64,000 bases of DNA from NCBI GenBank assembly GCA_001603805.1, contig LUZY01000002.1, positions 1 through 64,000 on the forward strand, given 5' to 3'. Positions within the stretch are counted from its first letter, which is position 1. Each line of letters begins with the position of its first letter. Position numbers and translations under genes: made by a program. The notes beneath the pieces are model-generated. The model was not told the origin of the DNA, made no database searches, and saw nothing but the letters and a program-made list of their open reading frames with translations. Origin of the DNA: Deferribacterales bacterium Deferri_01 (GTDB lineage: Bacteria; Chrysiogenota; Deferribacteres; Deferribacterales; Geovibrionaceae). Below are positions 1,136 through 22,927 of this stretch, in pieces.

Positions 1136-1153
1136 AGTGAAACTTTAGTGAAG
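1136..1153 (-). promoter_or_regulatory. 11-bp-spaced AGTGAA repeat upstream of the response regulator
   Basis: AGTGAAA at 1136-1142 and AGTGAAG at 1147-1153 are 11 bases apart, with the same spacing and orientation as the sites at 142-159 and 5017-5034. It lies between the stop of the TorA-like gene (1222) and the regulator, which suggests that the regulator has its own autoregulated promoter. Confidence 0.5.
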
Positions 1154-1221
1154 CGCCCTTGTAAACAAATATTCACAGGCAGAAACCATCTCCAACTCTT
1201 CTGTAATCTGAAGCTCTTTAC

Positions 1222-3603: not shown

Positions 3604-4998
3604 TCAATCCTCCAAAGGCATCTTACGCTGTCCGGAAATGGACGCATTGCTGCCGAAATAAATAACAGCATCAGAACCTGTTTTCCCATCAGACTTAAGC
3701 TCAAGCTTCCAGCCCAACTGAGTACACATCCTGTGCGCAATAGTGAGCCCAAAGCCAAATCCATCAGCCATGGCAACTCCCTCTGCATCATTTAAGCTGT
3801 CTCTTACATATTGCGGTATACCCGGACCAGTATCTCTCACGGATATATAGGTTTCGTGTATTGAAACCACTACCTCTCCTTTTTTTGTATAGGTAATGGC
3901 ATTTCTTATTATGTTGCTCACGACAATGTAGAAAAATTCAGAAGCAACAGGCAGGACAATACCCGCATACTCGCAGACCTTCACTTCAACCGGCTTGTTT
4001 CTGATCAGGTAGCTGTTATTTTCCACGCTTTCCCTTATCACCGATGCAGCCCTGCATGAGCTGCCGCTTTCATGTCTTTCCTGACGGGAGAGCCACAAAA
4101 AGGAGTTAATCAGGTGTTCCATATTAAGCGCTGCTCTTTTTATACGTGAAATAACATTCTGCGTTTTTTCACTGCTGCATTCCGGCTCCTCAGTCAGTAT
4201 CTTTACAGCTCCCTGAACCACCGTTACAGGCGAACGCAGCTCATGACTGGCGTCCCGTGCAAAAGCTTTCTCCCTGTCCAATGCGGACTGCATTTCATTT
4301 ATGGAATGCTCCAAGGCTTTTGCCAGAAAGCCCACCTCATCATTCCTAAAATCTGCGGCAAGGTTTTTCGGCAGTTTTCCATCGGAATCCCTGCCTTTTA
4401 TGATTTTTGTGAGCCGCACCACGGGGGAGACTGCTTTATATGAAGTGATTATCCCCAGAAGAAGCCCTATGATAAATATAGGTACAAGGATGATAGTAAA
4501 ATAAGTTCTGGAAACATTTATTGCAATGTGGTCAGTGAGCAGTGTGGTAACGTTAAAGAGTATATAAAGCCTCTGACCGTTTCCAAGATCTCTCACGGCA
4601 ACATAATAGTTCTGTTTGTCATTATGCTTTTCATAGTTTCCTTCAGGAATCTCAGCAAGATCTTTTGCCGCCCATTCAGGAAGAAAGTCTTCACCCAGAT
4701 ATGAGGTCATGTAAGGAGATTCCGGCAAAAGGATCTCAGAACTGAAAATCACCGGAGAAAAAGGAGAATTAACAACTGACTCAATATACCTGTCTGTTTC
4801 GAGTTTAAGCCTTTTCTTCAAGGTGTATTTTTCTGCATATTTAGTTGAAATCAGGATACCGGCAGCAAGCGCCCCGCCAAGAAGGATGCTGAAGACAACA
4901 AATACCAGAACTATTCTTAAACGAAGTGATTCGCTAATAAAACTCACAATAACTGCACCATTGTTGATCAAATATAAAACCATTAACGTATTAATCAA
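3604..4998 (-). CDS. Sensor histidine kinase with HAMP domain
   Basis: The protein has two membrane segments (about residues 27-50 and 167-190) flanking a periplasmic sensor of roughly 115 residues, then HAMP, HisKA with the phospho-acceptor in DASHELRSP, and HATPase_c (NAITYTKKG, DTGPGIP, GFGFGLTIAHR). It is the first gene of the operon with the TorA-like enzyme and most likely pairs with the response regulator at 365-1066. The start is uncertain: ATG 4998 and ATG 4983 lack a clear ribosome site and lie close to the repeat box, while GTG 4947 begins at VSFISESLRLR just before the first membrane segment. The sensor does not resemble the TorS hybrid type, since no receiver or Hpt domain is present. 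Confidence 0.88.
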   Translation of the reverse strand: MINTLMVLYLINNGAVIVSFISESLRLRIVLVFVVFSILLGGALAAGILISTKYAEKYTLKKRLKLETDRYIESVVNSPFSPVIFSSEILLPESPYMTSYLGEDFLPEWAAKDLAEIPEGNYEKHNDKQNYYVAVRDLGNGQRLYILFNVTTLLTDHIAINVSRTYFTIILVPIFIIGLLLGIITSYKAVSPVVRLTKIIKGRDSDGKLPKNLAADFRNDEVGFLAKALEHSINEMQSALDREKAFARDASHELRSPVTVVQGAVKILTEEPECSSEKTQNVISRIKRAALNMEHLINSFLWLSRQERHESGSSCRAASVIRESVENNSYLIRNKPVEVKVCEYAGIVLPVASEFFYIVVSNIIRNAITYTKKGEVVVSIHETYISVRDTGPGIPQYVRDSLNDAEGVAMADGFGFGLTIAHRMCTQLGWKLELKSDGKTGSDAVIYFGSNASISGQRKMPLED

Positions 4999-5080: not shown

Positions 5081-6229
5081 CTATCTGACATCTATCATAA
5101 ATGATGCCGCCAATGCACAGAGCAGAAGAGGAACCATTATAATCCCTGCCGTCTGCCACGAATAATGACCTGCTAAAAAGCTGAATAACACCGGACCACA
5201 GAACATTCCGGTATTTTGTCCGAGTGCTATAGCAGACATCCCTCTGCCGGTAAGATGCGGTTCTTTCATTATTTCTGAAACAGATGAAAAAGTTGCCGTC
5301 GGCACTATACCCCCCGTTATTCCAAGAATTATAAGCAGAAAAGGGAAAGTGGTAACTCTTGATGTGAAAAGAAAAAGCATCACAAAACAGACCATGACAA
5401 GACCTGTGATCAGAATTATTTTTCTTGACTTGAGCAGATCGGAAAACCACCCGCACAGGGGTGCGGAAGCAAGAGAAAAAAGCATAATAAGAGCAGTAAA
5501 CATCGAAGCTTTCAGCAAAGAGAGCCCCAGTTCTTCCTCAAGAAAAATAGGCGCATATGTTTTTACAGATACAATAACAATATTATAGATCATAAAAACA
5601 GCAGCAAGAAGCCAGATGCTTTTGTTTGAATAAGACCTGCGACAGACCTTGCCGTCTGTTTTATATTTCGCAGTGAAGCCATCAGGCATATGAAAAAATA
5701 CAAGGAAAGCAACAAGTGCAGCCAATGTGTAAACAGAAGTGAATATCCACGCATTCTGCCATATTCCGAATGCCGGAGCAGCAATAAACATTATGATTGT
5801 TCCGATAGGAACCCATGTTGCCCATACGCCCATTGCCGCACCTCTCCGCTCCGGAGGAAACCATGCGGAAATAGCTGCAGGACCTGTAACAGAAATGAGA
5901 CAAAGCCCGATCCCTTCAATTATACGGCTGAAAATGAGCATACCCAAAGAGGTTGAGGTTCCACCCATAACAGATCCGGCAAGCAGTGCCAAAAGGGCGA
6001 TGGTTCCGGAAGGCTTCATCCCTATCCTGCCTATAATGTGACCTGAAGGAAGTGCAAACAACATCCCTACAAGGGCAAACAAGGACATAAGCCACCCTGA
6101 AACCTCAATGCTCATGTCAAAATGCTCCACCAGCTGCTGCATCATGGGCGGCACTTTAAACTGGTTAAGAGGTGCTGCCACACCTGCAACAAACACGATG
6201 AGCAAAATTAAATAACGATTGTTATGCAT
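5081..6229 (-). CDS. MFS transporter
   Basis: This 382-residue, twelve-segment major facilitator carries the loop-2/3 signature GHIIGRIGMKPSG and a long Gly-rich helix after RIIEGIGLCLISVTGPAAIS. It resembles the CynX/NarK-like small-anion and organic-acid carriers, but the substrate cannot be read from sequence. The ATG follows GAGGGAAAA. It lies 62 bases downstream of the sigma-54 activator on the same strand, so the two may be co-transcribed. The carrier may handle the compound sensed by the activator and used by the operon at 8.5-16.7 kb (inference). Confidence 0.85.
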   Translation of the reverse strand: MHNNRYLILLIVFVAGVAAPLNQFKVPPMMQQLVEHFDMSIEVSGWLMSLFALVGMLFALPSGHIIGRIGMKPSGTIALLALLAGSVMGGTSTSLGMLIFSRIIEGIGLCLISVTGPAAISAWFPPERRGAAMGVWATWVPIGTIIMFIAAPAFGIWQNAWIFTSVYTLAALVAFLVFFHMPDGFTAKYKTDGKVCRRSYSNKSIWLLAAVFMIYNIVIVSVKTYAPIFLEEELGLSLLKASMFTALIMLFSLASAPLCGWFSDLLKSRKIILITGLVMVCFVMLFLFTSRVTTFPFLLIILGITGGIVPTATFSSVSEIMKEPHLTGRGMSAIALGQNTGMFCGPVLFSFLAGHYSWQTAGIIMVPLLLCALAASFMIDVR

Positions 6230-6291: not shown

Positions 6292-8274
6292 TCAGCCTTT
6301 TATTTTCCGGTATAAAGTCGCCCTGCTTATTCCCAGAGTTTTTGCCGCCTCTGTTGCATTTCCGAGTTCCTTGATTGTTTTTAGAATAACATCCTTTTCC
6401 AAGTCTTTAAGAGCATCCAGTTTGTTAGAGAGCGAATATTTTACTCCGCCTGTTATATCGTGAGGCAGATCCTTCGGGGTGATGACTCTCCCCGCTGCAA
6501 CAGTTACTGCATATATCATTGCATTCTGGAGCTGTCTTACATTCCCCGGCCAGGGAAACTCCATAAGGATTTTTTCAGTTTCCCCAGCCAGTGTACAGAC
6601 AGGCATATTAAAGTTGCTGCAGGTGCTTTTAATAAAGTTATCCGCAAGGAGAAGTATATCTTCTCCCCGTTCTCTGAGAGGAGGCAGCTCAAGCTTTACA
6701 ACCGCAAGCCTGAAATACAGATCCTGACGGAACTTATCTTCAGTAAAATTACCGCACAGAGATTTATTAGTCGCAGAAATTATTCTGAAATCAACAGGAA
6801 CACTTTTATTTCCCCCTATCCGGGTAACTCTTTTCTCCTCCAGAACACGAAGCAGAACAGGCTGAAGTGCCGGAGGCATGTCCCCTATCTCATCGAGAAA
6901 AAGAGTTCCGCCGTTTGCATATTCAATCTTCCCTTTTCTGCCTGTTTTTTCCGCACCGGTAAACGCCCCGCTCTCATAACCGAAAAGCTCGCTTTCAATA
7001 AGATTCGCAGGAATCGATGCACAGTTGATCGCAACAAACGGACCTGATTTATAATAGAAGTTGTGTATTGCCTGAGCAAAAACCTCTTTTCCGGTTCCGC
7101 TCTCTCCGAGAAGCAGTATGTTAATCGGTTTACGGGAAACCATCTTTGCGGTATCTTTCAGAGTTTCCATAATCTGACTTTTACCTATTATTCTATCGAA
7201 AGTAATACTGGGAACTCTCGCAGAATCTTCGGTCGTTACACTTTCAGTTTTCTTTCTTATGCGTATAACCGCACCTTGGGCATGCTTGAGACGATCTCCG
7301 TGAAACGGGTCAATATCTACAATAAAATGCTCCGAAGAATCAGTTTTCAGCATCAAGTTCTGATCGAGAACTGCTCTTCCGGTGTGCAGTGCATTTATTA
7401 AAGCTGTGGAGTCTGAGAGTATGGTAAAAAGATTAATCTTAGTATCACTGGAGAGATTCAGAAGCCTTGCTGCTTCTTTGTTTATGTTAATAATGCGTCC
7501 TGAATCATCTATTGAGATATAGCCGTCTTCAATATGGGCGAAGGTTGCCTTAAGGGTAGAATTCATGAGCTTAAGCCGTTTATCTCTCCGAAACAGCTTA
7601 AGCTGACTGCTGATTGCGGATGCCACGGAAGTTACCCAACCTAATGTATGGGTCATCATTCTGGTTATATCTGCGTTTCTCTGAACAAGCCTTATGCTTC
7701 CTATTGTTTCCCCGTATTCATTGAATATCGGGGCAGCGGAACTCAGGTTGCTTTCAAGAAACTTGTAAAAATTAGCCGGACCCATTATCTGAATAGGGCG
7801 GCTGTAGGCAAGAGCAAGAGTATGAGCGGTACAGCCGACATATTCCTCACTCCAAATATCTCCGATTTCAAGCATAAAGTCATTCCATATCCTGTCAGAG
7901 TTATTAGTTTTGCTGAGAAGAATCCCGTTTTCATCGGTAATTGACATTGTAAAGTCAGTTCCTTCAAGTATCTCCTGAAACTCTTTTATGAAGCCTGTCG
8001 CAACTTCTATGAAGAGACTTTTCTTTTCCTTGATACGCTCAAAATCACTTTCACTGAGCTTGGGAACTTTGATTGGGTTGTCCCATTTGATTCCGCAACG
8101 TATTGAGCGTGTCCACATTTCAATTATTTCCTCAGGGATAAAAGCTGCATCATCAGGTAGTTTTCCGGTTTCAATAAGCGTCTGTTTTGCTTCAGTGACT
8201 TTTCTCCAGACCTCTGGATCACAACTAGTTAGGACAATAGGCTTAAGCTGCCATATCTGACTTTTCTTTTTCAT
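6292..8274 (-). CDS. Sigma-54-dependent activator, GAF-PAS-AAA+-Fis (AcoR type)
   Basis: This 660-residue enhancer-binding protein has a GAF-like sensor (about residues 75-215), a PAS domain (about 235-340), the AAA+ module with Walker A GESGTGKE, the sigma-54 contact loop GAFTGAE and Walker B FLDEIGDM, and a C-terminal Fis-type helix-turn-helix ending [11 protein letters not shown]. There is no receiver domain, so it senses a ligand directly. It starts at ATG 8274 after AGAGGCG. It is divergent from the molybdoenzyme operon, which has a near-consensus -24/-12 promoter at 8427-8442 and dyads at 8338-8367 placed as enhancer sites. The proteins of this group typically detect small organic molecules; the ligand here is unknown. 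Confidence 0.93.
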
Positions 8275-8337: not shown

Positions 8338-8367
8338 TGAGACAGATCTCACTTATGAGACACTCAT
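8338..8367. promoter_or_regulatory. Pair of TGAGACA dyads, likely enhancer sites of the sigma-54 activator
   Basis: TGAGA-CAGA-TCTCA (8338-8351) and ATGAG-ACA-CTCAT (8355-8367) are perfect inverted repeats that share TGAGACA, 18 bases apart. They lie roughly 85-115 bases upstream of the expected start point of the sigma-54 promoter at 8427-8442, the usual place for upstream activating sequences. Confidence 0.55.
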
Positions 8368-8426
8368 AAAAACCATACCAAAAGATATAGTCTTGATAAT
8401 ATTCAACTTTTACCAAGAAAACCAAT

Positions 8427-8442
8427 TGGCATCTCTGTTGCA
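8427..8442 (+). promoter_or_regulatory. Sigma-54 (-24/-12) promoter of the molybdoenzyme operon
   Basis: TTGGCATC-TCTG-TTGCA matches the consensus TGGCAYR-N4-TTGCW. GG at 8428-8429 and GC at 8440-8441 have ten bases between them, the strict RpoN spacing. It lies about 100 bases upstream of the first gene at 8539, and the RpoN activator is encoded divergently next to it. Confidence 0.75.
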
Positions 8443-8538
8443 TTATATAAACAAGCAAACTCACTGCCCAACGGAAATATAGTTCCTGCTGACGGAGAGA
8501 GCAACAAAGTTAATTAATTTTTATTTCAGGAGAACTTT

Positions 8539-9117
8539 ATGAATCAAAATACTCAGACTGCAAATCATGCGTCAGAGGCTGATGAACTCTTTATAAAAAT
8601 AGCCTCCGAGCCCGCATCACGGGAAATCATGTACAAAACTCTCAATTACTGTTTCACTCCCCGCCCGCTGGAGGAGGTCAAAACTCAGATAAGAAAGTGG
8701 GTTGGGGCCAAAGCGATGCTTCATTCGGCTCAGGCAATTGTCAACTGTCTTTTAGAGTCCGGGGGGCTGGAAACTCTTAAAAATGAGAGCGCCATGGAGC
8801 TTCAGACAACCCCGGCAGGAAAAACCGTGGCGGATGCTGCGGCTCCCAATAAAAGGCTGGTTAGGCTTTTCAGAAGCTCGCCCGAATATGCGGATATTTT
8901 TATATCAATTATCCGTGCCTGCGCCCAGCCCAAAACAACGCAGCAGATTGAGAGCATGCTGGCAGATAACGAAATAATGGCACGAGAAAATATTTTTGCC
9001 AGTTACTTCATTGGTGAACTGGAGGACGCAGGCGCCCTTGAATGGGATGTTAAGTGGGTTTCAACACAGTCAGGCATGGAAGCTGCCGCAGAGAGAAACC
9101 TCTTAAATCATAAATAA
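8539..9117 (+). CDS. Tandem winged-helix-like protein, first gene of the molybdoenzyme operon
   Basis: I do not recognise this 192-residue soluble protein as a named family. It shows an internal duplication: residues about 28-100 (EIMYKTLNYCFTPRPLEEV ... ELQTTPAGKTVAD) align with about 113-184 (DIFISIIRACAQPKTTQQI ... WVSTQSGMEAAAE). Each half reads as three helices followed by a T-x-x-G turn, like a winged helix-turn-helix unit. A good ribosome site (AGGAGAACTTT) precedes the ATG. It is the first product of the sigma-54 operon, 39 bases ahead of the Tat-exported catalytic subunit. A regulatory or assembly role is possible; no enzyme motif is visible. Confidence 0.8.
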   Translation: MNQNTQTANHASEADELFIKIASEPASREIMYKTLNYCFTPRPLEEVKTQIRKWVGAKAMLHSAQAIVNCLLESGGLETLKNESAMELQTTPAGKTVADAAAPNKRLVRLFRSSPEYADIFISIIRACAQPKTTQQIESMLADNEIMARENIFASYFIGELEDAGALEWDVKWVSTQSGMEAAAERNLLNHK

Positions 9118-9156
9118 CAACAATATGTTATGCGCAATTTTAATTAGGAGGATTTA

Positions 9157-11838
9157 ATGCAACATTTTAAACTGAATCGTAGGGATTTTTTAAAGGCTAC
9201 AGCAGTTGCCGGTACTATGGCATCAGCTGGCTCGCTCCTCGGCGGCAGCCTTGTACCCGGAGCGGAAGCTGCAACAACTGATGACACTCAAATCATCAGA
9301 ACAAACTGCCGAAGCTGTACAGCAGACTGCGGTGTTCTTGCCCATGTTAAAAACGGGCGTGTTGTGAAGCTTGACGGCGACCCTGATTTTTCCAGAAGTG
9401 AAGGCGCACTTTGCGTCAAAGGGCTTTCCGGAATACAGGCACTCTACCACCCTAACAGACTTAAATACCCGCTTAAAAGAGTCGGTCTGAGAGGGGAAAA
9501 CAAATGGAAACGTATTTCATGGGAACAGGCTATAGATGAGATAGCCCATAAACTTATGGAAATAAGGGCGAAATACGGCGCTGAGTCTGTATTTGCATCA
9601 ACAGGCGGAGGCGGAAACCCCAACTTCAACGGTGCATGCAGGTTCTGCGACACTTTTGATACACCCAACTGGTTTGAGCCCGGCGCTGCTCAGTGTTATA
9701 TGCCCAGAACACTTATCTACGGCATGGCATACGGAGATAACAAATCCTATCAGGGTACAGATACCAGCCTTGGCGACTCAAACGGTGTTGAACTCTATTT
9801 CTATAATGAAAGAAACGCCAAAAGCCTTGTTATGTGGGGCACAGCTCCCGCTTACAGCGGACCTTCACAGGCAGGACGAGTTCTTGCTGAAAACAGGGCA
9901 AGAGGTCTGAAAACAGTTGTCATTGATCCTCGTTTCACTCCGGATGCTTCAAAAGCAGATATCTGGCTGCCCATCAGACCCGGAACAGATGTGGCTCTGG
10001 GGCTGTCATGGGTTCGTTACATCATCGCAAACAAGCTTTATGACAAAGACTTCTTACAGAGATGGTCGAACCTGCCTTATCTGGTAAATACAAAAACAAA
10101 AATGATGCTCAGAGGCAAAGAGCTTTTCAAAAATGCTGATGACAAAACATTTGTCGTCTGGGACACTAAAACAAACTCTGCAAAACCTCTTCCCTTCCCA
10201 TATGACGACAACTTAGACCCTGCGCTTGACGGAACATTCACAATAAACGGTGAAGAGTACAAAACCGGATTTCAGCTTCTCAAGGAAAGAGCTGAACCCT
10301 GGACTCTGCAAGCTGCCGGAAAAGAATGCTGGCTTGAACCTAAATCAATAGAAAAAGCAATACTCATGTTTGCAAAAGACGCCCCCTCCAGTATAGCACT
10401 CGGCGTGGCAACAGACCAGACCCCCAACTCAACTCAGGCAGCGCAGGTTACTGCTGTTCTGCATATTCTCATGGGTTATTTTGAAAAACCAGGCGTCCTG
10501 CTTCAGCGTTATGAAGACAAGGGCGTCGGAGGACTCCTCAGAACAACAAAGCTTAAAAGCTTCCTCTCTGAAGCACAGCTTCATAAACGTCTGGGCTCTG
10601 TTGAGCATAAAGGTATGCTCCACTGGTGGATTGCACAGCCCACAGCAATACTTGAAGCCATGACTACCGGCAAGCCTTATAAACTTAAAGCATGGCTTGA
10701 ACGTTCAGGCAATAAGCTCGGCACAGTGGCAAATGCGTCCGCATGGGTTGAGGGAATGAAAAACCTTGACCTGATCGTGCATATCTTCCTTTACCCCACA
10801 TCTTTCTCTGCTTATTCCGACTATCTTTTGCCTGCAACGGAATGGCTTGAGTCAGACTTCATAACTGCTTCTTTAAACAAATGCTTCTCACGCAAGGCTG
10901 TTACACATCTTTATGAAACAGCTAACGAAGCATGGATCTGGGCTCAGATAGCAAAACGCTGCGGAGAACTGGGGCATGAAAACTGCAAACGCTCTTTCGA
11001 CAAAGCTCAGACAGCACCAGAATCACCCTATTACAACACATACGAAGAGCAGCTTGACCATTGGACAAGCTTTTTCGGAATGACATGGAAAGAATACAAA
11101 GACAAGACGCCTTTTGAATTTACTCCGATGGAAAGATTCAGACGCTACTATGTTTACAAAGAAATCAACCCTAAGACAGGCAAAGTAAAAGGCTTTAACA
11201 CAGGAACAGGTAAAGTGGAAGGCTATATGGAAAGCCTTATTATTCTGGGTCGTACAGGTCAGCCCTTCACAACCTATCCTCTGCCCCCGGCCACCAAGGA
11301 TTACGATCCGCTGCCTTACTACCTCAAACCTTCAGAAAGTCCTGATAATGAAGTAGGTAAAGAATATCCTCTTGTTATGACCAACGGACGCCTCCCTTTC
11401 TGGCATCACACAACCCTGAGAAATATCCCGTACCTCAGAGAGATCAAACCATACGCAGAACTGTGGGTACACCCGGCTGATGCCAAGAAATACGGTATAT
11501 CTCAGGATGACTGGGTTCAGATCGAATCAATGAGAGGAAAAATCCACGCAAGGGCACTTGTTACTGAAGGAATCGCAAAGGGAGTAGTTTATATGGAGCG
11601 TTTCTGGAACCCGGAAAACCTTGATACTCCCACCCACGGCTGGCAGGAAATGAACGTGAATGTTCTTTCCAAACAGACCGCTCCTTTCAATGACTTATGC
11701 GGAACATATACCCTCAGAGGCTATCAGGTGAAAATATCAAAAGCCAAAGAAGCTCCAAAAGGCATCTGGACCGAACCGAAGCAGTTTGAACCATGGATGC
11801 CCCAAGTGTCTGACAAAACTAAAACAGTGGAGATTTAA
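9157..11838 (+). CDS. Tat-exported molybdopterin oxidoreductase catalytic subunit
   Basis: The 893-residue protein starts with a Tat signal (LNRRDFLKATAV). The Fe-S motif CRSCTADC followed by GALCVKG supplies the four Cys of the FS0 cluster, and the rest is the bis-MGD fold of the DMSO reductase family. In the segment PGAAQCYMPRTL the Cys is the likely Mo/W ligand, as in PsrA-like, formate dehydrogenase-like and catechol dehydroxylase-like branches, rather than the Ser of TorA/DmsA. It is larger than PsrA, with an insertion near residues 310-380. The ATG follows TAGGAGGATTTA. Fe-S, TorD and anchor genes follow in one operon. The substrate is unknown; a ligand-sensing sigma-54 activator nearby suggests an organic compound (inference). 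Confidence 0.9.
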   Translation: MQHFKLNRRDFLKATAVAGTMASAGSLLGGSLVPGAEAATTDDTQIIRTNCRSCTADCGVLAHVKNGRVVKLDGDPDFSRSEGALCVKGLSGIQALYHPNRLKYPLKRVGLRGENKWKRISWEQAIDEIAHKLMEIRAKYGAESVFASTGGGGNPNFNGACRFCDTFDTPNWFEPGAAQCYMPRTLIYGMAYGDNKSYQGTDTSLGDSNGVELYFYNERNAKSLVMWGTAPAYSGPSQAGRVLAENRARGLKTVVIDPRFTPDASKADIWLPIRPGTDVALGLSWVRYIIANKLYDKDFLQRWSNLPYLVNTKTKMMLRGKELFKNADDKTFVVWDTKTNSAKPLPFPYDDNLDPALDGTFTINGEEYKTGFQLLKERAEPWTLQAAGKECWLEPKSIEKAILMFAKDAPSSIALGVATDQTPNSTQAAQVTAVLHILMGYFEKPGVLLQRYEDKGVGGLLRTTKLKSFLSEAQLHKRLGSVEHKGMLHWWIAQPTAILEAMTTGKPYKLKAWLERSGNKLGTVANASAWVEGMKNLDLIVHIFLYPTSFSAYSDYLLPATEWLESDFITASLNKCFSRKAVTHLYETANEAWIWAQIAKRCGELGHENCKRSFDKAQTAPESPYYNTYEEQLDHWTSFFGMTWKEYKDKTPFEFTPMERFRRYYVYKEINPKTGKVKGFNTGTGKVEGYMESLIILGRTGQPFTTYPLPPATKDYDPLPYYLKPSESPDNEVGKEYPLVMTNGRLPFWHHTTLRNIPYLREIKPYAELWVHPADAKKYGISQDDWVQIESMRGKIHARALVTEGIAKGVVYMERFWNPENLDTPTHGWQEMNVNVLSKQTAPFNDLCGTYTLRGYQVKISKAKEAPKGIWTEPKQFEPWMPQVSDKTKTVEI

Positions 11839-11840
11839 CA

Positions 11841-12443
11841 ATGAAAAAAACAGCGCTAGTAATAGACCTTGACCGTTGCATCGGATGCTACTCATGCGAG
11901 ATCGCCTGCAAGAATGAAAATAAAATTGACCTCGGGGTGCAGTACAATAAAGTCTTCACCATGGGTCCCACCGGCAGCTTTCCAAATCTGGAGATGTACT
12001 ACCTCCCAGCAGTGTGCCAGTCATGCAAAAATGCTCCCTGTGTGGAAGTATGTCCCACCGGCGCATCATATGTGGATAAAGACGGTGTAATACTCGTTGA
12101 CAGCAAGAAGTGTATCGCCTGCATGTCGTGCATATCCGCATGCCCCTACGGCGCACGTAAATTCAATGAAAAACAGCAGTACGTTGAAAAATGTACAATG
12201 TGTTCTCACCTTCTGAATGCGGGAGATCAGCCCGCATGCGTTAAGGTTTGCTGTGCTAAAGCCAGATTTTTCGGTGACGTCAACGATCCGGAAAGCAAAG
12301 TTTCCAAAATTATCAAGGAAGCCGGCTCCGCTGCCCGCAGCCTTCCCGATGAAGGAAACCACCCTGCAACACGCTACATACTGCACGATAAAACAGCAAA
12401 ATGGCAAAACAAGAAATCATGGACATTCTTTGAGAACATCTGA
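11841..12443 (+). CDS. Four-cluster [4Fe-4S] electron-transfer subunit (DmsB/PsrB type)
   Basis: This 200-residue protein has the standard set of four Cys groups: CIGCYSCEIACK near the N-terminus, CQSCKNAPCVEVCP, CIACMSCISACP and CTMCSHLL with a later CVKVC. It passes electrons between the membrane subunit and the molybdenum subunit just upstream (three bases apart). It lacks its own signal peptide, as usual for subunits co-exported with the Tat-bearing partner. Confidence 0.93.
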   Translation: MKKTALVIDLDRCIGCYSCEIACKNENKIDLGVQYNKVFTMGPTGSFPNLEMYYLPAVCQSCKNAPCVEVCPTGASYVDKDGVILVDSKKCIACMSCISACPYGARKFNEKQQYVEKCTMCSHLLNAGDQPACVKVCCAKARFFGDVNDPESKVSKIIKEAGSAARSLPDEGNHPATRYILHDKTAKWQNKKSWTFFENI

Positions 12444-12497
12444 CAACAAAATTATGGGGCGGCAGCACTGCCGCCCTGTAAAACAGGAGAGCCGATA

Positions 12498-13178
12498 ATG
12501 GAAACAATTGCAGAATATACTGAAATAAACGGCTGCCGTGAAAGCATGTATCTCTTTCTCATGCATTTATACAAATCGGAAGTTGATGAAAACCTGTTCA
12601 TGCAGATGAAGAATGCTGCATATCCCGAAGACGGAAACACCGAAATCACCAACGGATATAGGATTATAAAAGGCTATCTTAATCTTCCGCATACAGATCC
12701 TCTGACAGATCTTGCGGTTGACTACGCAAAAGTATTTCTCGGAGCCGGAATTGTGGATCCAAAGAAAGTCGCCTACCCGTATGAGTCTGTCTACACCAGT
12801 CAGGAAAGACTGATAATGCAGGACGCCAGAGACGAAATGCTCCGGATTCTGAGGGAAAATAAGCTGGGGCTTGAAAACAGCTACAACATACCGGAAGACC
12901 ATATATTTGTTCAGCTTGAATTTATGGCACATATCTGCGGAGAAATACGCAAAGCCTTTGAAAAAGATGATAAAAAAGCAGCAGCCGTTCTTCTGGGTGA
13001 ACAGAAACAGTTCATAGAGAACCATCTTTTAAACTGGGTTCCGGAATTATGCTCCGATATTAAAAAGTTTGCCCTGACTGATTTTTACAAAGGTCTGGCT
13101 ATGATTACCGAAGAATATACAAAAATGGATCTTGCCGTTGTTGAAGACATGTTATCCGCATGTACCACGCCTGAATAG
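12498..13178 (+). CDS. TorD-family molybdoenzyme chaperone
   Basis: The all-helical 226-residue protein carries the TorD/DmsD features: the helix-1 pattern ESMYLFLMHLYKSEVDE, the acidic DYAKVFLGAG and AYPYESVYTSQERL segment, and the late EFMAHICGEI ... NHLLNWVPEL. TorD proteins bind the Tat signal and insert the cofactor before export, so its client is most likely the enzyme at 9157-11838. The ribosome site GGAGAGCCGATA precedes ATG 12498. Confidence 0.9.
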   Translation: METIAEYTEINGCRESMYLFLMHLYKSEVDENLFMQMKNAAYPEDGNTEITNGYRIIKGYLNLPHTDPLTDLAVDYAKVFLGAGIVDPKKVAYPYESVYTSQERLIMQDARDEMLRILRENKLGLENSYNIPEDHIFVQLEFMAHICGEIRKAFEKDDKKAAAVLLGEQKQFIENHLLNWVPELCSDIKKFALTDFYKGLAMITEEYTKMDLAVVEDMLSACTTPE

Positions 13179-13188
13179 TGAGGCATGT

Positions 13189-14007
13189 ATGTATACTAAA
13201 TGGCAAATGACATTTTTTTTGTTTTTAGGCATCGTAAACGCCGGGATATTGCTCTGTATTGCAGCAAAAATGATCGCAGATTCCGAAGAAAAGGCTGAGA
13301 AATATGCTTTGGCTGTTTTCCTGACAAGCTTATTCGCAGTCCTTTCTGTTGCTCTGGGACTAAACAATCCGGCCGGAATCATCAACATACTCGCCAAACC
13401 AGGCACAGGACTTAGCAGTGCTGTTATATCCCTTGCAGTGTCTGCTGTTTTCGGGCTGGTTCTCTTCATCAGAAAACCTTCAGGTATGTACATTGCCTTT
13501 ACATCAGCGGCAGTGTCAGCCGCAGTTATATTCTGCCTGTCCAAGCTATACATGATCAGCACCAGACCAGCTCTGCATACTTTTCTTTTGTTAAGCCTGT
13601 TTATTGTGCTTTCCGTGCAGTTTGCTTCAGTGCTGGCGGTAACAGACAGCTCATGCAGTAACAGCTTTTTCAGGAAAAAATCTATTGTTTCACTGTGCAT
13701 TCTCAGCGCAAGCGTTCTGCTTTTCGCCACTTTTATACTGAGAATCAAAATGCTGACTCCTCCCGACAGGATACTCTCCTTTGAACAGCTCACATCGGGA
13801 AGCCTCGCACCGGTAATGTGGGGAGCGGTGTTAACAATGTTTGTGATCCCAGCATTGGCTTCTTTTATACCGGCGCTGAGAAAGCAGCCAGCGTTGAATA
13901 CGATATTCAGACTGTCCGCCGCACTGGGAATATTCCTGCTGAGTATTCTGATAAATCAGATGCCCGCAATGACAGGAACTGTCGGCGGAGGAAGAATACT
14001 TTTCTGA
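13189..14007 (+). CDS. DmsC-like membrane anchor subunit
   Basis: This polytopic protein of 272 residues has about eight hydrophobic segments and resembles DmsC (helix 1 MTFFLFLGIVNAGILL, then SVALGLNNPAGIINILAKPGTGLSSAVIS, which parallels the DmsC quinol-side region). DmsC anchors the catalytic and Fe-S subunits and oxidises menaquinol. The frame extends upstream into the torD gene, but ATG 13189, after GTGAGGCATGT, is preferred because it begins at the first membrane helix. Confidence 0.75.
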   Translation: MYTKWQMTFFLFLGIVNAGILLCIAAKMIADSEEKAEKYALAVFLTSLFAVLSVALGLNNPAGIINILAKPGTGLSSAVISLAVSAVFGLVLFIRKPSGMYIAFTSAAVSAAVIFCLSKLYMISTRPALHTFLLLSLFIVLSVQFASVLAVTDSSCSNSFFRKKSIVSLCILSASVLLFATFILRIKMLTPPDRILSFEQLTSGSLAPVMWGAVLTMFVIPALASFIPALRKQPALNTIFRLSAALGIFLLSILINQMPAMTGTVGGGRILF

Positions 14008-14039
14008 GGCATTGTAAAGGGTATTTAAAGAGTTCAGAT

Positions 14040-14654
14040 ATGAAAATTTCCAGAAGAACATTTATTAAACTGATCTCGGCGGTATCAGCAGCACCAAAGC
14101 AGGCGCTCTGTGCGGAGAATGGCAGACAAAACTTTCTGAGACCTCCCGGAGCTGCTTCAGAAAAGGAGTTTCTGGAGAGATGCAACAGGTGTCAGAAATG
14201 CGTGCAGGTGTGCCCAACAAATGTGGTGATGCCGGCTTCCCTTTCTTACGGGTTAATTGATATGAACACTCCGGTAGTTACTTTTAAGGTGTCTTATTGC
14301 AACTCCTGCATGAAATGCACTGAAGTCTGCCCTACAGGAGCGCTCAAGCCCATCAGCAAAGAAAAACTTGATATAGGAGTGGCAGTTATATCTGAGACAG
14401 ACTGTGTGGCATGGGAATGGACAGGCTGCACTGTGTGCGTGGATGAATGCCCGCTGAAGGCCATATATCTGGATGAAAACAAACGCCCTGTGGTGATACC
14501 TGAAAAATGCAACGGTTGCGGGATATGTGAGTTGAAATGCCCATCCACTGCGCTGCGTAAAACCACCCGGAATAAAGGTGTAATAGTTAAGCCCAGAACA
14601 GGCGGCGTACCGGCGAGAGAATACAGCGAAGAAGCAGGGAGCGGTAAAAGTTGA
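14040..14654 (+). CDS. NapG/MauM-like ferredoxin with Tat signal
   Basis: Begins MKISRRTFIKLI, a Tat motif, followed by four Cys clusters: CNRCQKCVQVCP, CNSCMKCTEVCP, CVAWEWTGCTVCVDECP and CNGCGICELKCP. This is the layout of NapG, a periplasmic Fe-S protein that works with the membrane quinol oxidase NapH. The predicted protein has 204 residues. The frame is open upstream, but that part overlaps the anchor gene and lacks a signal. The next gene is a NapH-like protein overlapping by four bases. Confidence 0.88.
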   Translation: MKISRRTFIKLISAVSAAPKQALCAENGRQNFLRPPGAASEKEFLERCNRCQKCVQVCPTNVVMPASLSYGLIDMNTPVVTFKVSYCNSCMKCTEVCPTGALKPISKEKLDIGVAVISETDCVAWEWTGCTVCVDECPLKAIYLDENKRPVVIPEKCNGCGICELKCPSTALRKTTRNKGVIVKPRTGGVPAREYSEEAGSGKS

Positions 14655-15451
14655 AACGGCTGAATTTATCTAAATACAGAATTCTGACCCTTGCCGGAGG
14701 AGTAATCATCATCACGGCAGCTTTTTTTATCGGCACAGGAGTGGGTTCATACTGCACACTCTGCCCGCTGGGGCTTCTGCAGATAGCTGCTGCCTCTGGC
14801 AGTCTTCCGACAGGTATGCTGTTCGGTACGCTCTCAGGGCTTATAGCCGTGCTGGTTTTGGGGCGTTTTTTCTGTGGCTGGTTCTGTCCCACTACTTTGA
14901 TAAAAAAAGTATTCGGCAGCAACGGCAAAAAATATCAGCCTTCGGAAAAAGCCAACAAATATATAAAAAGGCTTCCGGTGCTGATTGCGGCTGGCTCTGT
15001 CGCTGTATCATTTTTAGCAGGATTTCCGGTTTTTTGCCTGATCTGCCCTATAGGCATTTTTTTCGGTTTCATCTTTGCAGTCATGAAAATGCTGTTTGTA
15101 CTTGAACCGAGCTGGAACCTGATAATTTTCCCTGCAATTCTCACAGCGGAAATACTGATATTTAAGAAATGGTGTTCTTACATATGCCCGGTATCCGCAT
15201 TATTCTCCCTTGTCTCAAAGATACCTTTTGTCAGGTTCAGACCAGTGCTGAACAGCCAGACATGTATTTCACACAGCGGAGGACTCTGTTCATCCTGCAT
15301 AAGATCCTGTCCGGAAGGAATAAACATTACAGAAAACGATGAAGATATGAACACAAAATGTACAAGCTGCATGGAGTGCATTGACAACTGCCCAACACAC
15401 TCACTCTCCTATGCGCGGAATAAAACCAACAATAATCAGGAGGATTTATGA
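14651..15451 (+). CDS. NapH-like membrane iron-sulfur protein
   Basis: The 266-residue protein has four to five membrane helices with the CxxCP-type motifs of the NapH/NosR/CcoG group (CTLCPLG, CGWFCPT, CLICPIG, CSYICPV), and a C-terminal cytosolic pair of [4Fe-4S] sites (CSSCIRSCPEG and CTSCMECIDNCP). It would take electrons from menaquinol and pass them to the NapG-like protein. The start is TTG 14651, which overlaps the stop of the previous gene (TTGA). Its presence beside a DmsC-like anchor in one operon is unusual. Confidence 0.85.
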   Translation: MKRLNLSKYRILTLAGGVIIITAAFFIGTGVGSYCTLCPLGLLQIAAASGSLPTGMLFGTLSGLIAVLVLGRFFCGWFCPTTLIKKVFGSNGKKYQPSEKANKYIKRLPVLIAAGSVAVSFLAGFPVFCLICPIGIFFGFIFAVMKMLFVLEPSWNLIIFPAILTAEILIFKKWCSYICPVSALFSLVSKIPFVRFRPVLNSQTCISHSGGLCSSCIRSCPEGINITENDEDMNTKCTSCMECIDNCPTHSLSYARNKTNNNQEDL

Positions 15452-16689
15452 GAAAGCTACTTTTAATTTTTTCAGTGACATTCTGTACGGCGCTCTTTAG
15501 TTTTGCTGCCGACAATGTAAAAGATATGTTCGCTGACGGTTCGCTTAAAGGCGAAATCAGAATACTCAGTTTTCAGAGGAACTTTGACAAAACCACACCG
15601 GACAGGCTGGATAATGCCGCCGGCGGATTGCTGTATTACCGCACCGCATCCTTTAAAGGAATATCCTTCGGTGCAGCTTTCGCAACGGCAAACAGCATTT
15701 TCAATGACGATGATGATGCCGTTTACAGCCTTCTTGCCAGAGATGAAGACGGAAACCACAAAAGTGTCACCCGTCTTCAGGAGTATTTCATCCAGGGCGA
15801 ATGGTTTGATACAGTCATCAAATACGGGGCGCAGGAAATCAAAACCCCCATGTTCAACATTCATGACATCCGCATGATGCCCAGAACTTTCAAAGGGCTT
15901 TCCATCGTGAACAATTCCCTTGAGAATCTTACTCTTTCTGCTTACTACATCACAGACTCAATGGGATGGAGTGATGATGAGTTCATCACACTCTCCAAAG
16001 CTGTTGCGGACGAACCCGGAGGCGCTGCATCAATATCTGAAGATAACCACATGGCAATCTTCGGAGCATCATACAATATTCCCACAGATGCTGTGAAAGC
16101 CAATGTTCAGGGCTGGTTCTACACCATGGAAGATGTTTACAGAGAGACCTTTTTCAAGGCTTCGCTGAGCAAAAAATTCGGCGAAACAAACATTTATTTC
16201 AACCCTTCATACTTTACCCAGAAATCTCAGGGCGATGAACTCAACGGTGACGCTGACACATACCAGTACGGCTTCAACACAGGTGCGGTGTTTAAAGGCT
16301 TTAATCTTACAGGCTTTTATGCCAAAACAGGTGACGATGGTCTTGTTCTCCCATGGGGTGATGATAAGGTTGTAATCCAGCAAGTACTGGCATCGGGCAG
16401 AGCAGAAGAGGACGTTTACGCATTGAAAGCGGCTTACGACTTCTCACGTATAGGTCTGAAAGGTCTGAGTGCATATGTTTTCTATGCTGAATATGATGTA
16501 CCGGAATCAACAGGCAAGGATCAGTCTGAAATAGATTACAGTGTTCAGTATGCCTTTTCAGGAACTCTGGACGGACTCAGCCTCAGGGCAAGATACGCTG
16601 ATATAGATGTTAAAGATGGCGGCGAAGGCTACAACGACATCCGATTCTACGCTATCTACAAGTTTGCCCTCGGCAAAAAGGAAAAATAA
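15448..16689 (+). CDS. OprD-family outer-membrane porin
   Basis: A signal peptide (MRKLLLIFSVTFCTALFSFA) precedes a 390-residue beta-barrel rich in alternating aromatic strands, with the OprD-like start in which LKGEIRILSFQRNF is followed by an exterior loop and YGAQEIKTPMFNIHDIRMMPRTFKGL. It ends in a beta-signal (FYAIYKFALGKKEK). OprD porins pass small organic anions or amino acids, so this porin probably brings the enzyme's substrate into the periplasm. It overlaps napH by four bases (ATGA) and is the last gene before a strong terminator. Confidence 0.85.
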   Translation: MRKLLLIFSVTFCTALFSFAADNVKDMFADGSLKGEIRILSFQRNFDKTTPDRLDNAAGGLLYYRTASFKGISFGAAFATANSIFNDDDDAVYSLLARDEDGNHKSVTRLQEYFIQGEWFDTVIKYGAQEIKTPMFNIHDIRMMPRTFKGLSIVNNSLENLTLSAYYITDSMGWSDDEFITLSKAVADEPGGAASISEDNHMAIFGASYNIPTDAVKANVQGWFYTMEDVYRETFFKASLSKKFGETNIYFNPSYFTQKSQGDELNGDADTYQYGFNTGAVFKGFNLTGFYAKTGDDGLVLPWGDDKVVIQQVLASGRAEEDVYALKAAYDFSRIGLKGLSAYVFYAEYDVPESTGKDQSEIDYSVQYAFSGTLDGLSLRARYADIDVKDGGEGYNDIRFYAIYKFALGKKEK

Positions 16690-16704
16690 ATACTAGTATC
16701 AAAC

Positions 16705-16731
16705 AGCGGGCAGAAATGCCCGCTTTGTTCT
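16705..16731 (+). terminator. Rho-independent terminator of the sigma-54 operon
   Basis: AGCGGGCA (16705-16712) and TGCCCGCT (16717-16724) form a perfect 8-bp stem closed by a GAAA tetraloop, followed by TTGTTCTTT. Confidence 0.85.
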
Positions 16732-16829: not shown

Positions 16830-16912
16830 TGTGCATTCATTCTCATCAACGTATTATTATTTAATTTATTTTTACCAATATATATATGACTTATAACAGT
16901 CTGGGTGATGTT

Positions 16913-17905
16913 ATGGACGAGATTCTCAGCAAACTTACAGACAAGCAGTTACTGCACAAGGCGATAGCTATCAACCAAAACTGGCTGTCAGTTGAGGATG
17001 TGCAGTTATTCACCAGCGATAAATATCAGAAGAAGTATCTTTCCACAATCTTCAAAATTATCGAATACTATGATGGAGATGTCGGCTACTTTGACCTGCT
17101 GGGTAAAAAAGAACTCATGCATTCTCTGCTTGAAACAGCAAGAGAACACATGGATGAAGGAATCCGGCTTGATATGCTTTTGGGAAGCGCAAAAGTTTAC
17201 TGTATATATTATGAATATATTCTGTCACATTCCTCAATAAACAAGAAAGATGTTATCAGGTTTCTTGTTAATCTTAGAAAAATCCATGACGCCTTTGAGG
17301 TGATAGCGGTAAAAGAATGGTTTATACATATAAATGAAGTGAACTGCATAAAAATCAATATGCTCCAAGAAAAGGTTGAGACACGCAACCTGCAGCTCAG
17401 TGCATTAATTGAAACTTCCAGTGATTTCATAGCAATTGTTGATATGGAAGGCAAAATAATTTTCATGAACCATAAAATGGCTTCGTATTTTTCTATTATA
17501 AATTGTGAAGAAAGACAGCTTTGCTCACTCCTTAACTATGAACATATTAGCTTTAATGAACTTTTGAAGTTTTATAACTACGGAGGCAGAAAGCAACTCT
17601 GCCTTTCAAACGGGGAACAGTTTTACACAACTTTATCAAAACTTCCGGCAGGTCTTTTTTTATTCTCAATGTCATACATCAGAAACAGTCCGTCTTCTTC
17701 CATAAAAGAGATGATTTCAAAGTTTACCCCCTCTGAAAATGCTGTCTGCTCCTGCATAATCAAAGGTATGACTACCAGAGAAATTGCAGATAATCTCTTT
17801 ATATCAATCGATACCGTGAACACACATAGAAGAAATATCAGGCGTAAACTGGAGTTAATAGGTAAAAATGAAACAATTACTCAGAAGCTTGGTTCATTTA
17901 AGTAA
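16913..17905 (+). CDS. LuxR-type regulator with helical N-terminal domain and PAS
   Basis: This 330-residue protein has an N-terminal all-helical domain (about 1-145), a PAS domain (about 155-250) and a C-terminal LuxR/FixJ helix-turn-helix (TREIADNLFISIDTVNTHRRNIRRKL). The N-terminal segment LLETAREHMDEGIRL ... LRKIHDAFEVIAVKEW aligns with the regulator at 60481-62133 (LLKSAHRHYERGIGE ... LRRIIDSMETLAVGEW), so they are paralogues. It resembles RsbR/RsbRD N-terminal domains in style (tentative). ATG 16913 follows GGGTGATGTT; an upstream ATG at 16886 has no ribosome site. It probably controls one of the flanking molybdoenzyme operons. Confidence 0.85.
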   Translation: MDEILSKLTDKQLLHKAIAINQNWLSVEDVQLFTSDKYQKKYLSTIFKIIEYYDGDVGYFDLLGKKELMHSLLETAREHMDEGIRLDMLLGSAKVYCIYYEYILSHSSINKKDVIRFLVNLRKIHDAFEVIAVKEWFIHINEVNCIKINMLQEKVETRNLQLSALIETSSDFIAIVDMEGKIIFMNHKMASYFSIINCEERQLCSLLNYEHISFNELLKFYNYGGRKQLCLSNGEQFYTTLSKLPAGLFLFSMSYIRNSPSSSIKEMISKFTPSENAVCSCIIKGMTTREIADNLFISIDTVNTHRRNIRRKLELIGKNETITQKLGSFK

Positions 17906-17957
17906 AAAAGCGCTTTAAATGATTGACAATACACAGTTTCAAATTTAAATTAAACTT

Positions 17958-18644
17958 ATGTTTAATATATCAATACAGCATCTGATGAATTACAGTTTAT
18001 TCCTTGAAAAGTGGTTATTTCATATAAAAGAAACGCATATAATAGCCTTTACTTCCAACCGTGCGAATTCTGAACTTCATTACAAAAAAATCATAACAAT
18101 TATTGATGATACTATCAGCCGATATGAAAGCAATATCGTAATGACAAGGATTTTATCTGATAAAAACTTCAGAAATTCTGCGGAAAATATAATCAGCCAA
18201 CATATTGATCATACAAGTATGAGTACTTTTATGCTGGCGTTTAAACTTTTTAAGCAATGTGTTGTTGAAATAATAAATGAATCTGGTGTCAAAGGTACTG
18301 CGCAAATATTGCCGGAAGTCGGTAAAGTATTTGATGCAATGGATGTTATCTTTACTGATATTTACCATATGAACAGCATAAACAAATTAAGAAATATGCT
18401 GCAACAGGTCACTAATACAACACCAAAGCCAAAGCCCATAAAGATTGGTTCAAAATCGATGACACAAACCGAGCATAAAATTTGTGAATACATCAAAGAA
18501 GGTTTATCCACAAAAGAAATTGCAGAAAAAATGAATGTTGTAATTTCCACAGTTCAGACACATAGGAAAAGAATAAGAAAAAAGCTGAATATCAATAATA
18601 AGCAAAGTTTATATAATCACTTAAAAGAAAATGTTAATAGCTGA
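17958..18644 (+). CDS. LuxR-type regulator, short paralogue lacking PAS
   Basis: The 228-residue protein keeps the N-terminal helical domain of its neighbour (ENIISQHIDHTSMSTFMLAFKLF ... VFDAMDVIFTDIY) and the C-terminal LuxR helix-turn-helix (TKEIAEKMNVVISTVQTHRKRIRKKL), but has no PAS domain between them. It is 52 bases downstream of the longer paralogue on the same strand. No strong ribosome site is visible, so a later Met is possible. AT-rich compared with neighbours. It may modulate the longer protein or hold a second, PAS-independent input (inference). Confidence 0.8.
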   Translation: MFNISIQHLMNYSLFLEKWLFHIKETHIIAFTSNRANSELHYKKIITIIDDTISRYESNIVMTRILSDKNFRNSAENIISQHIDHTSMSTFMLAFKLFKQCVVEIINESGVKGTAQILPEVGKVFDAMDVIFTDIYHMNSINKLRNMLQQVTNTTPKPKPIKIGSKSMTQTEHKICEYIKEGLSTKEIAEKMNVVISTVQTHRKRIRKKLNINNKQSLYNHLKENVNS

Positions 18645-18749: not shown

Positions 18750-19376
18750 TCAAACTGCATCCTGACAGCTCTCTGTTATTTCTTTTAGATTCTTAAAATC
18801 TATAGTTAAAAACTCTTCCACCAGCAATACCATAGCCGAATAGAACCCCTGCTCTCCTGCTTCTTTCAGCACATTGGATGAAAACATGGGCACCCATTGG
18901 AGAAGGTGCTTTTCTAAAAATAACCGCTGTTGTGTCATATATTTCATATGCCCGCTCTCAGCAGTTTTTTCAGACATTTTAAACATGAAATACAACTCAG
19001 AGGGGAAACTATCTATTGAAAAGTTAACTCCGGATGGACGCGGAATATTATTGTCTGCATAAAATAAAGTAACTGACAAAATAAGTTCCGTTGGGTTCAG
19101 ACTGCTTCTATGTCTGGACTCTTTCAGTTCAACACTGCGCAGCCCTAGAAGAAACAGACGGGTAAACTGCATATTCAGTGAAAGAATATCTAAATCATTG
19201 CATTTCTTCAGTATTGATAACCCGCGGGAAAACTTAGCCGGAATCTCTTTTTCCAGTGCCTCAAACACCGGAATAAACGTATCTATTGCTTTCAAAAGCC
19301 TTTCATCCGGTACAATATAGAACACTAAAGTAAAAAATTCGTATATCGCCTGACGGCCAAGTAAGTAATTTTTCAT
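18750..19376 (-). CDS. TorD-family molybdoenzyme chaperone
   Basis: This 208-residue helical protein has TorD features: an N-terminal helix GRQAIYEFFTLVF, the segment LNMQFTRLFLLG with an acidic neighbour, and the late EKHLLQWVPMF. It is the last gene of the DmsA-like operon, so its client is probably the enzyme at 20017-22854. A hairpin lies between it and the Fe-S gene. Confidence 0.88.
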   Translation of the reverse strand: MKNYLLGRQAIYEFFTLVFYIVPDERLLKAIDTFIPVFEALEKEIPAKFSRGLSILKKCNDLDILSLNMQFTRLFLLGLRSVELKESRHRSSLNPTELILSVTLFYADNNIPRPSGVNFSIDSFPSELYFMFKMSEKTAESGHMKYMTQQRLFLEKHLLQWVPMFSSNVLKEAGEQGFYSAMVLLVEEFLTIDFKNLKEITESCQDAV

Positions 19377-19390
19377 TATTTTACCTAAAA

Positions 19391-19420
19391 GCAGCTCCCA
19401 CCCAGAAAAGCGGGAGCTGC
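19391..19420 (-). terminator. Intercistronic hairpin before torD
   Basis: GCAGCTCCC (19391-19399) and GGGAGCTGC (19412-19420) form a 9-bp stem. On the minus strand it is followed by TTTTAGG, directly upstream of the torD start. It may be a leaky terminator or processing site that keeps the chaperone at a lower level than the subunits. Confidence 0.5.
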
Positions 19421-19426
19421 GGATTA

Positions 19427-20020
19427 TTACCAGGTTTTAATAACTATTGAAGGTCCGGTTAATTTTTGATTCGGCACAAGATCTTCCGCTGCAGAGGCTG
19501 CATTAGCAGGAAGAGTTGTAAGATCATGGGTATTGCCATAATTACCGATCAAAACATCATAATCTCCAAATTTTAGTGCCGCATTAGGACAGCTTTGAAC
19601 GCAAAACGGCTGAATTCCCGCCTGAAGACGGTCATAACACATATCGCATTTGCTGGCTTTTTCAGCTTCCTCATTAAAAACCGGAGCATGGTACGGACAT
19701 ACCTCAATACATGTCTGGCATCCGATACATTTGCTATAATCATGTATCACAGGGCCTTCTGGGGTTTTCGTATATGCTTCCACTGGGCAATATTCAACAC
19801 ACTGAGGCTGATGGCAATGGTTGCAACTCATAGAAACCTGTATAAAGGTATTCGGATTCTCTCCAAATTTTGGATTGCTGATCCCCTCAAGCTCCACTGA
19901 ACGAACTTTTCTCCACTTAATGCCTGTGACAAGTTTACGTTCCATCTTACAGGCAAGCTCGCAAGTTTTACAGTTGTTACAGTATCTCGTATCTATCAGA
20001 AATGCTAAACGCCTGCTCAT
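19427..20020 (-). CDS. Four-cluster [4Fe-4S] electron-transfer subunit (DmsB type)
   Basis: This 197-residue protein has four Cys groups: CNNCKTCELACK, CNHCHQPQCVEYCP, CIGCQTCIEVCP and CDMCYDRL with CVQSCP. It overlaps the catalytic gene upstream by four bases (ATGA), so the two are a stoichiometric pair. No membrane anchor follows; only torD does, so quinol oxidation must come from elsewhere or the enzyme uses a soluble donor. Confidence 0.93.
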   Translation of the reverse strand: MSRRLAFLIDTRYCNNCKTCELACKMERKLVTGIKWRKVRSVELEGISNPKFGENPNTFIQVSMSCNHCHQPQCVEYCPVEAYTKTPEGPVIHDYSKCIGCQTCIEVCPYHAPVFNEEAEKASKCDMCYDRLQAGIQPFCVQSCPNAALKFGDYDVLIGNYGNTHDLTTLPANAASAAEDLVPNQKLTGPSIVIKTW

Positions 20021-22854: not shown

Positions 22855-22927
22855 GGTTCTCTCCTTCTTCATCATGTCCTATCAATTTTAAACAATCTTG
22901 TTTATATCCAATAAGTTATGCGAAGCA

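Follow-up and report, generated by a model that had tools for sequence, protein, structure and literature searches.

The operon and its promoter

The DNA considered here, referred to as the window, comprises the first 64,000 nucleotides of contig LUZY01000002.1 from Deferribacterales bacterium Deferri_01 (assembly GCA_001603805.1), and its subject is an operon (8426-16724) built around a molybdenum (Mo) oxidoreductase. In order, the operon encodes a protein called wh1, the Mo subunit, an iron-sulphur (Fe-S) subunit, TorD, a DmsC-like anchor, NapG-like and NapH-like proteins, and an OprD porin; the gene for a sigma-54 activator faces it divergently on the opposite strand (Table 1). An earlier note on this DNA had named all of these parts except the first gene, whose product is 192 amino acids (aa) long. 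Each named part was found where that note had placed it, and the open reading frames (ORFs) of the window and the domains called with Pfam and NCBIfam agree. The source genome (2.85 Mb) has 21 molybdopterin oxidoreductase genes; among named organisms, Seleniivibrio and other Deferribacteraceae are the closest to it.

Table 1. Features of the operon and its control region (window coordinates)
Feature	Position	Strand	Basis
Sigma-54 activator, AcoR/DhaR-type: N-terminal sensor, PAS, AAA+, Fis helix-turn-helix (HTH)	6292-8274	-	Pfam, DhaR model
Two dyads, TGAGACAGATCTCA and TTATGAGACACTCATAA, candidate activator sites	8338-8371	.	Sequence and conservation
-24/-12 sigma-54 promoter, TTGGCATCTCTGTTGCAT	8426-8443	+	Pattern search, shuffles, relatives
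wh1, tandem winged-helix protein	8539-9117	+	DadhE-position homologue; wh1 profile matches; predicted structure
Mo catalytic subunit, bis-molybdopterin guanine dinucleotide (bis-MGD), N-terminal Fe-S cluster motif, twin-arginine translocation (TAT) signal, Cys180	9157-11838	+
Four-cluster Fe-S electron-transfer subunit, DadhB-like	11841-12443	+
TorD-type chaperone, DadhF-like	12498-13178	+	PF02613, 1e-30
DmsC/NrfD-type 8-helix anchor, DadhC-like, without equivalents of DmsC His65 and Glu87	13189-14007	+
NapG-like periplasmic ferredoxin, DadhG-like, TAT signal, four Fe-S motifs	14040-14654	+	Motifs; NapG/MauM models
NapH-like membrane ferredoxin, DadhH-like, TTG start	14651-15451	+	NapH models
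OprD-family outer-membrane porin	15448-16689	+	PF03573, 3e-31
Intrinsic terminator-like hairpin, operon end	16705-16724	+	Stem in sequence

The operon is real, coherent, and conserved. With the napG start set to 14040, the gaps from wh1 to oprD are about 39, 2, 54, 10, 32, -4, and -4 bases, the last two being 4-base overlaps at napG/napH and at napH/oprD. The seven-gene core is kept in 8 other Deferribacterota operons (one of them cut by a contig end), and oprD is present at 8 of 9 Deferribacterota loci, the window included. The proposal that one operon combines DmsC-like and NapGH-like proteins in the service of one molybdoenzyme is upheld. A separate promoter for the NapGH-like genes, together with independent variation in relatives, had been named as a sign against that proposal; within Deferribacterota the outcome spoke against such a refutation, since napG overlaps napH and no complete copy of the operon lacks either gene. 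A perfect GC-rich hairpin of 8 pairs (12457-12476) lies within the 54 bases that separate the Fe-S gene from the TorD gene.

The -24/-12 site reads TTGGCAT-N5-TTGCAT and is the sole exact match to TGGCAYN5TTGCW in the 64 kb (0.25 expected). None of 300 shuffles of the intergenic region reached its score. Equivalent sites, each scoring above all 300 shuffles of its own region, precede 7 other Deferribacterota and 2 Sporomusa operons. The source genome has rpoN. With a -24/-12 element, an activator, and rpoN, the operon bears, by sequence, the marks of sigma-54 control, as had been proposed. The copies of TGAGACA at 8338 and 8356 are not rare as 7-mers (10 found versus 8 expected). They are contained in the two dyads upstream of the promoter, both of which are kept in genome G001; the dyad TGAGAC-N3-TCTCA recurs at the related loci L001 and L003.

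The activator, which is kept beside the operon in relatives, matches PF00158 (4e-64), PF02954 (5e-11), and, weakly, PAS (2e-4). Its N-terminus resembles that of DhaR, the DhaR model spanning residues 43-659. A divergent GAF-PAS activator had been described; its orientation, AAA+ and Fis HTH domains, and a weak PAS domain are borne out, but a GAF domain was not called in the Pfam and NCBIfam searches. A major facilitator superfamily (MFS) transporter gene (5081-6229) adjoins that of the activator, as it does at L001 and in G001, and its product is a possible carrier for substrate or product.

The catalytic subunit

The Mo subunit had been called PsrA-like, a description that is not sustained. 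By sequence its closest solved structure is acetylene hydratase (2e7z), ahead of PsrA, and it passes no NCBIfam equivalog, the best model being PhsA (297 bits versus a cut-off of 694). In a tree with the other Mo enzymes of the source genome and of Eggerthella lenta as outgroup, it falls in a clade of its own (support 100/100), whose members come from Deferribacterota, Sporomusa, Acidobacteriota, Telmatospirillum, Sutterellaceae, Campylobacter, Lachnospiraceae, lactobacilli, and Eggerthellaceae. This clade sits beside the Eggerthella-type catechol dehydroxylase (Cdh) clade (100/100) and an acetylene-hydratase-like clade, named by resemblance only because no genuine Gordonibacter-type Cdh (eam cluster) was identified, and apart from Psr/Phs/Tor/Dms-type enzymes with support of 86/93 to 92/97, named PsrA, acetylene hydratase, and ArrA sequences being outside the tree. 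The subunit lies outside the Dadh/Hcdh/Cadh clade, at about 32% identity to characterised Cdhs. Tree placement and model scores led us to reject PsrA/PhsA and inorganic-oxyanion identities.

In the alignment, Cys180 falls at the Mo-ligand column, a residue that the subunit shares with the Cdhs and that aligns with the Cys ligand of acetylene hydratase. The catalytic Asp13 of acetylene hydratase is replaced by Thr55, so that this identity too was rejected; moreover, acetylene hydratase is a non-redox enzyme, whereas the window holds a full electron-transfer set. Arg184, Asn305, Trp563, Arg755, and Glu762 are common to the clade and the Cdhs and absent from most other groups compared.

Likeness to the Eggerthella lenta dehydroxylase clusters

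Among the genomes compared, G154 is one that we take to be E. lenta DSM 2243. At 1193 aa, the Mo subunit of its locus L135 is as long as El Hcdh is reported to be. That of L128, the Dadh candidate, is 36% identical to L135 (published Dadh versus Hcdh, 35.3%) and 51% identical to two enzymes of the five-Cdh cluster L129/L130 (published Dadh versus Cadh, 50.9%). Because the length and these identities agree with the published values, L128, L129/L130, and L135 are matched to the dadh, cadh, and hcdh clusters. Homologues of wh1, TorD, NapG, NapH, and the DmsC-like protein surround the Dadh, Hcdh, and Cadh candidates, and the Eggerthellaceae loci have the same parts with divergent regulators of the membrane LuxR type.

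The combination of both anchors, which had been thought unusual, is therefore not new: the co-occurrence of DmsC-like and NapGH-like proteins is real and conserved, but it belongs to a known type of system, and the same set is found in the dehydroxylase clusters characterised in E. lenta. Like the Eggerthella-type Cdh clusters (PMC7028382; PMC11887054, a 2025 report), the operon has a bis-MGD subunit that carries a TAT signal and a Cys at the Mo-ligand column, a four-cluster Fe-S subunit, and a DmsC/NrfD anchor. It also has the accessory set of DadhE/wh1, DadhF/TorD, and the DadhG/H ferredoxins, with a dedicated regulator adjoining. It differs in the separate clade and low identity of its Mo subunit, in holding all genes in one operon, in its sigma-54 activator in place of a membrane LuxR protein, in its OprD porin, and in an anchor without quinol residues. 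Judged from these parts, the operon is one that would work like the characterised Cdhs, yet it stands outside their clade.

Genetic work bears on the shared parts. The E. lenta Dadh set is described as DadhA-I, and in Gordonibacter urolithinfaciens dadhC, dadS, and dadhI are dispensable and dadhB, dadR, and dadhD-H indispensable; deletion of dadhC in this heterologous host left dopamine metabolism unaffected, and Dadh protein was still produced in most inactive accessory mutants (PMC11887054).

The same report offers a counterpart for wh1. Among 31 Deferribacterota and related genomes, all 10 matches to wh1 adjoin a Mo gene, and in E. lenta the wh1 profile finds matches in the dadh (73 bits), cadh (96 bits), and hcdh (71 bits) clusters. 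By gene order and the published description of the cluster (PMC11887054), wh1 is equated with DadhE, a "hypothetical" protein needed for Dadh activity. It was not taken for the helicase-domain protein DadhD, which in the E. lenta cluster is a separate gene of 620 aa (without a match in NCBIfam), wh1 matching the next gene. The predicted structure of wh1 has two winged-helix units in tandem (pLDDT 85.5, pTM 0.62), for which Foldseek returned only generic winged-helix matches (best E 8e-3). A TAT signal was looked for in wh1 and none was seen, so the protein should stay in the cytoplasm, a location consistent with a role in maturation.

Within E. lenta, the enzymes of L131 and L134 come nearest to the Mo subunit of the operon, at 49-51% identity and within the same 100/100 clade; these loci share the accessory set but are LuxR-regulated and have no porin. 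Literature searches on the E. lenta clade members and on lactobacilli gave nothing useful. A third deep Mo lineage (100/100) comprises L136 of E. lenta and L106 of the Deferribacterota genome G016. Both have Fe-S, DmsC-like, NapG, and NapH genes nearby, which argues that the accessory set serves at least three Mo clades.

The membrane anchor and the ferredoxins

The DmsC-like protein alone has no Pfam match; relatives in its alignment match NrfD/DmsC, and its predicted structure is an 8-helix NrfD-type fold, nearest to PsrC (2vpw_C, E 4e-5). In E. coli DmsC, quinol oxidation is blocked when His65 is replaced, and Glu87 is important in coordinating the quinol (PMC8076601). In all eight Deferribacterota anchors compared from this operon type, the His65 column holds Gly, Asn, or Thr and the Glu87 column holds Ala; the window anchor itself has Gly and Ala, which sets it apart from DmsABC. 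The other 12 aligned anchors, which include E. coli DmsC and one unrelated Deferribacterota locus in G016, keep Glu87 in every case and His65 in 10, and the anchors of Sporomusa, Robertmurraya, and Eggerthellaceae keep both. The alignment rests on few invariant residues, with about 17% identity to distant anchors, and the indication that Deferribacterota anchors have lost the DmsC quinol residues is thus strong but not conclusive. Since these are the residues that DmsC uses for quinol oxidation, the protein of this operon is probably no more than an anchor.

The NapG-like and NapH-like proteins match NapG/MauM and NapH models at about 1e-23 and 1e-22, below cut-off, and fail the curated models (84 and 81 bits versus 269 and 234); by sequence they are homologues of NapG and NapH, yet not equivalogs. 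The operon shares with Nap this pair, proposed to be a quinol dehydrogenase or a maturation module. It differs in that NapA belongs to another family, in lacking the cytochrome NapB, and in model scores that are far too low. With DmsABC and PsrABC it has in common a Mo subunit, a four-cluster Fe-S subunit, and an NrfD-type anchor; those systems have no NapGH and no wh1, belong to another catalytic clade, and retain the quinol residues of the anchor.

Distribution and modularity

Farther from Deferribacterota, relatives have a different module in place of the entire membrane module. The loci of the clade come in two forms: TAT-exported enzymes with DmsC and/or NapGH, often with wh1, and non-TAT enzymes with neither. 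(TAT calls were made with a loose pattern, which flagged the AsrAB locus L022 as TAT and missed a few TAT enzymes.) DmsC and NapGH also occur together in Sporomusa, Robertmurraya, Sutterellaceae, Telmatospirillum, and Eggerthellaceae. The non-TAT enzymes are those of Lachnospiraceae, Oscillospiraceae, Clostridiaceae, and lactobacilli, nearly all with genes for AsrA and AsrB; the two AsrA/AsrB pairs tested are equivalogs above cut-off, and AsrA is sometimes fused to TorD. No locus of the clade combines the DmsC/NapGH and AsrAB modules. Campylobacter L012, on a short contig, has DmsC without adjacent NapGH, and L009 and L029 have neither module. The presence in fermenters of AsrA/AsrB, an NAD(P)H module, is in keeping with a reductase, an enzyme to which electrons are delivered.

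Some neighbours of Mo-subunit relatives were considered for what they say of the substrate. At L004 (5910-9236), L018 (306-1358), L007, L008, and L024, the neighbours include genes for MtaA/UroD-like methyltransferases and, in Sporomusa, for a BaiCD-like flavoenzyme. A link to methoxylated or hydroxylated aromatics is possible, but these genes gave no consistent answer. In the source genome (G000), a second full copy of the operon (L102, G000:C3:314792-317452; Mo subunit 63% identical) has oprD shifted upstream of wh1 and its own divergent activator and -24/-12 site; G001 and G002 carry the same pair of systems.

Proposed mechanism and its alternatives

Taken together, these observations point, with somewhat better than even confidence, to a terminal reductase that is periplasmic, depends on menaquinol, and operates in the manner of the Cdhs but belongs to a separate clade, with a DmsC-like anchor and a single electron route through NapH and NapG. 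A small organic compound would activate the divergent regulator, which would bind the TGAGAC dyads and open the sigma-54 promoter. By analogy with E. lenta genetics, wh1 and TorD would retain the Mo subunit in the cytoplasm until it has matured and can be exported by TAT. Once in the periplasm, it would be seated with the Fe-S subunit on the DmsC-like protein, and electrons would pass from menaquinol via NapH/NapG and the Fe-S subunit to the Mo site. The OprD porin would admit the substrate. That substrate is most likely a hydroxylated (catechol-like) organic compound, and its reduction would most likely be removal of a hydroxyl; the porin and the DhaR/AcoR-like activator suggest an organic ligand, and the organic substrate proposed earlier stands as the likeliest reading.

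Several points weigh against this proposal. Identity between the Mo subunit and the characterised Cdhs is low, at about 32%; no DadhD helicase-domain homologue was found among the window ORFs beside the operon (the genome at large was not searched), and a DadhI homologue is not in the operon. PMC11887054 calls the assignment of all E. lenta Cdhs complete, and the L131 and L134 enzymes are not listed in the text consulted, so that the substrate of the clade may not be a catechol. Finally, the dispensability of dadhC was seen in a heterologous host with anchors of its own (PMC11887054), and the task of NapGH may be to reduce the enzyme during maturation and not to feed electrons into catalysis (PMC6195509).

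This last point leads to an unlikely alternative, in which NapGH is a device for maturation or reactivation that reduces an Fe-S or Mo centre during assembly, and quinol oxidation for catalysis falls to the DmsC-like anchor with an altered site. Such a role for NapGH has been suggested in Campylobacter jejuni (PMC6195509), and the Dadh protein that persists in most inactive accessory mutants fits it; but with the anchor residues lost and dadhC dispensable, another entry for electrons must exist.

The earlier suggestion of two functional quinol routes, with the DmsC-like and NapGH-like proteins each oxidising menaquinol or one of them acting as an energy-coupling site, is more doubtful still. 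Both modules do lie in one conserved operon, and two routes are possible in Sporomusa, Robertmurraya, and Eggerthellaceae, whose anchors keep His65 and Glu87. In Deferribacterota, the replacement of these residues, which E. coli DmsC needs, and the dispensability of dadhC in the heterologous host (PMC11887054) led us to reject two equal routes and, for the same reasons, to favour the single one via NapH/NapG. That the enzyme reduces an inorganic acceptor, as a reductase of the PsrA/PhsA, ArrA, or selenate type would, is very improbable: the many Mo oxidoreductases of the genome and PhsA as nearest model speak for it, but in the tree the clade stands apart from these families, lactobacilli and Lachnospiraceae have cytoplasmic relatives that are linked to NADH, and the porin and activator suggest an organic ligand.

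More tentatively, the clade may represent a widespread respiratory dehydroxylase/reductase family, spanning Deferribacterota, Sporomusa, Acidobacteriota, Eggerthellaceae, gut Firmicutes, and lactobacilli, for a common hydroxylated natural compound. Its core would be wired either to menaquinol/NapGH (with a non-oxidising DmsC anchor in Deferribacterota) or to NAD(P)H/AsrAB, with tandem winged-helix proteins as dedicated molybdoenzyme maturation factors. Machinery of the Eggerthella type, known from human-gut Actinobacteria, is here packed into a single compact operon of a Gram-negative phylum. The apparent natural loss of the anchor quinol residues would give independent support to the view that electrons truly enter enzymes of this class through NapGH-like proteins, and the widely shared catalytic clade offers a clear target for substrate discovery.

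Neighbouring genes

Other oxidoreductase genes lie elsewhere in the window. A TorA/BisC-type reductase (1222-3603; 925 bits versus the S/N-oxide reductase model cut-off of 1017) is flanked by response regulator and histidine kinase genes (365-4998 in all). Two LuxR-type regulators (16886-18644) adjoin another Mo operon (18750-22875), which encodes a 952-aa Mo subunit, an Fe-S subunit, and a TorD-like protein. At 37761-40857, a secreted FAD-dependent reductase-like gene (39361-40857) adjoins a porin-like gene and a small cytochrome-like one, and the group resembles a further set for a respiratory reductase.

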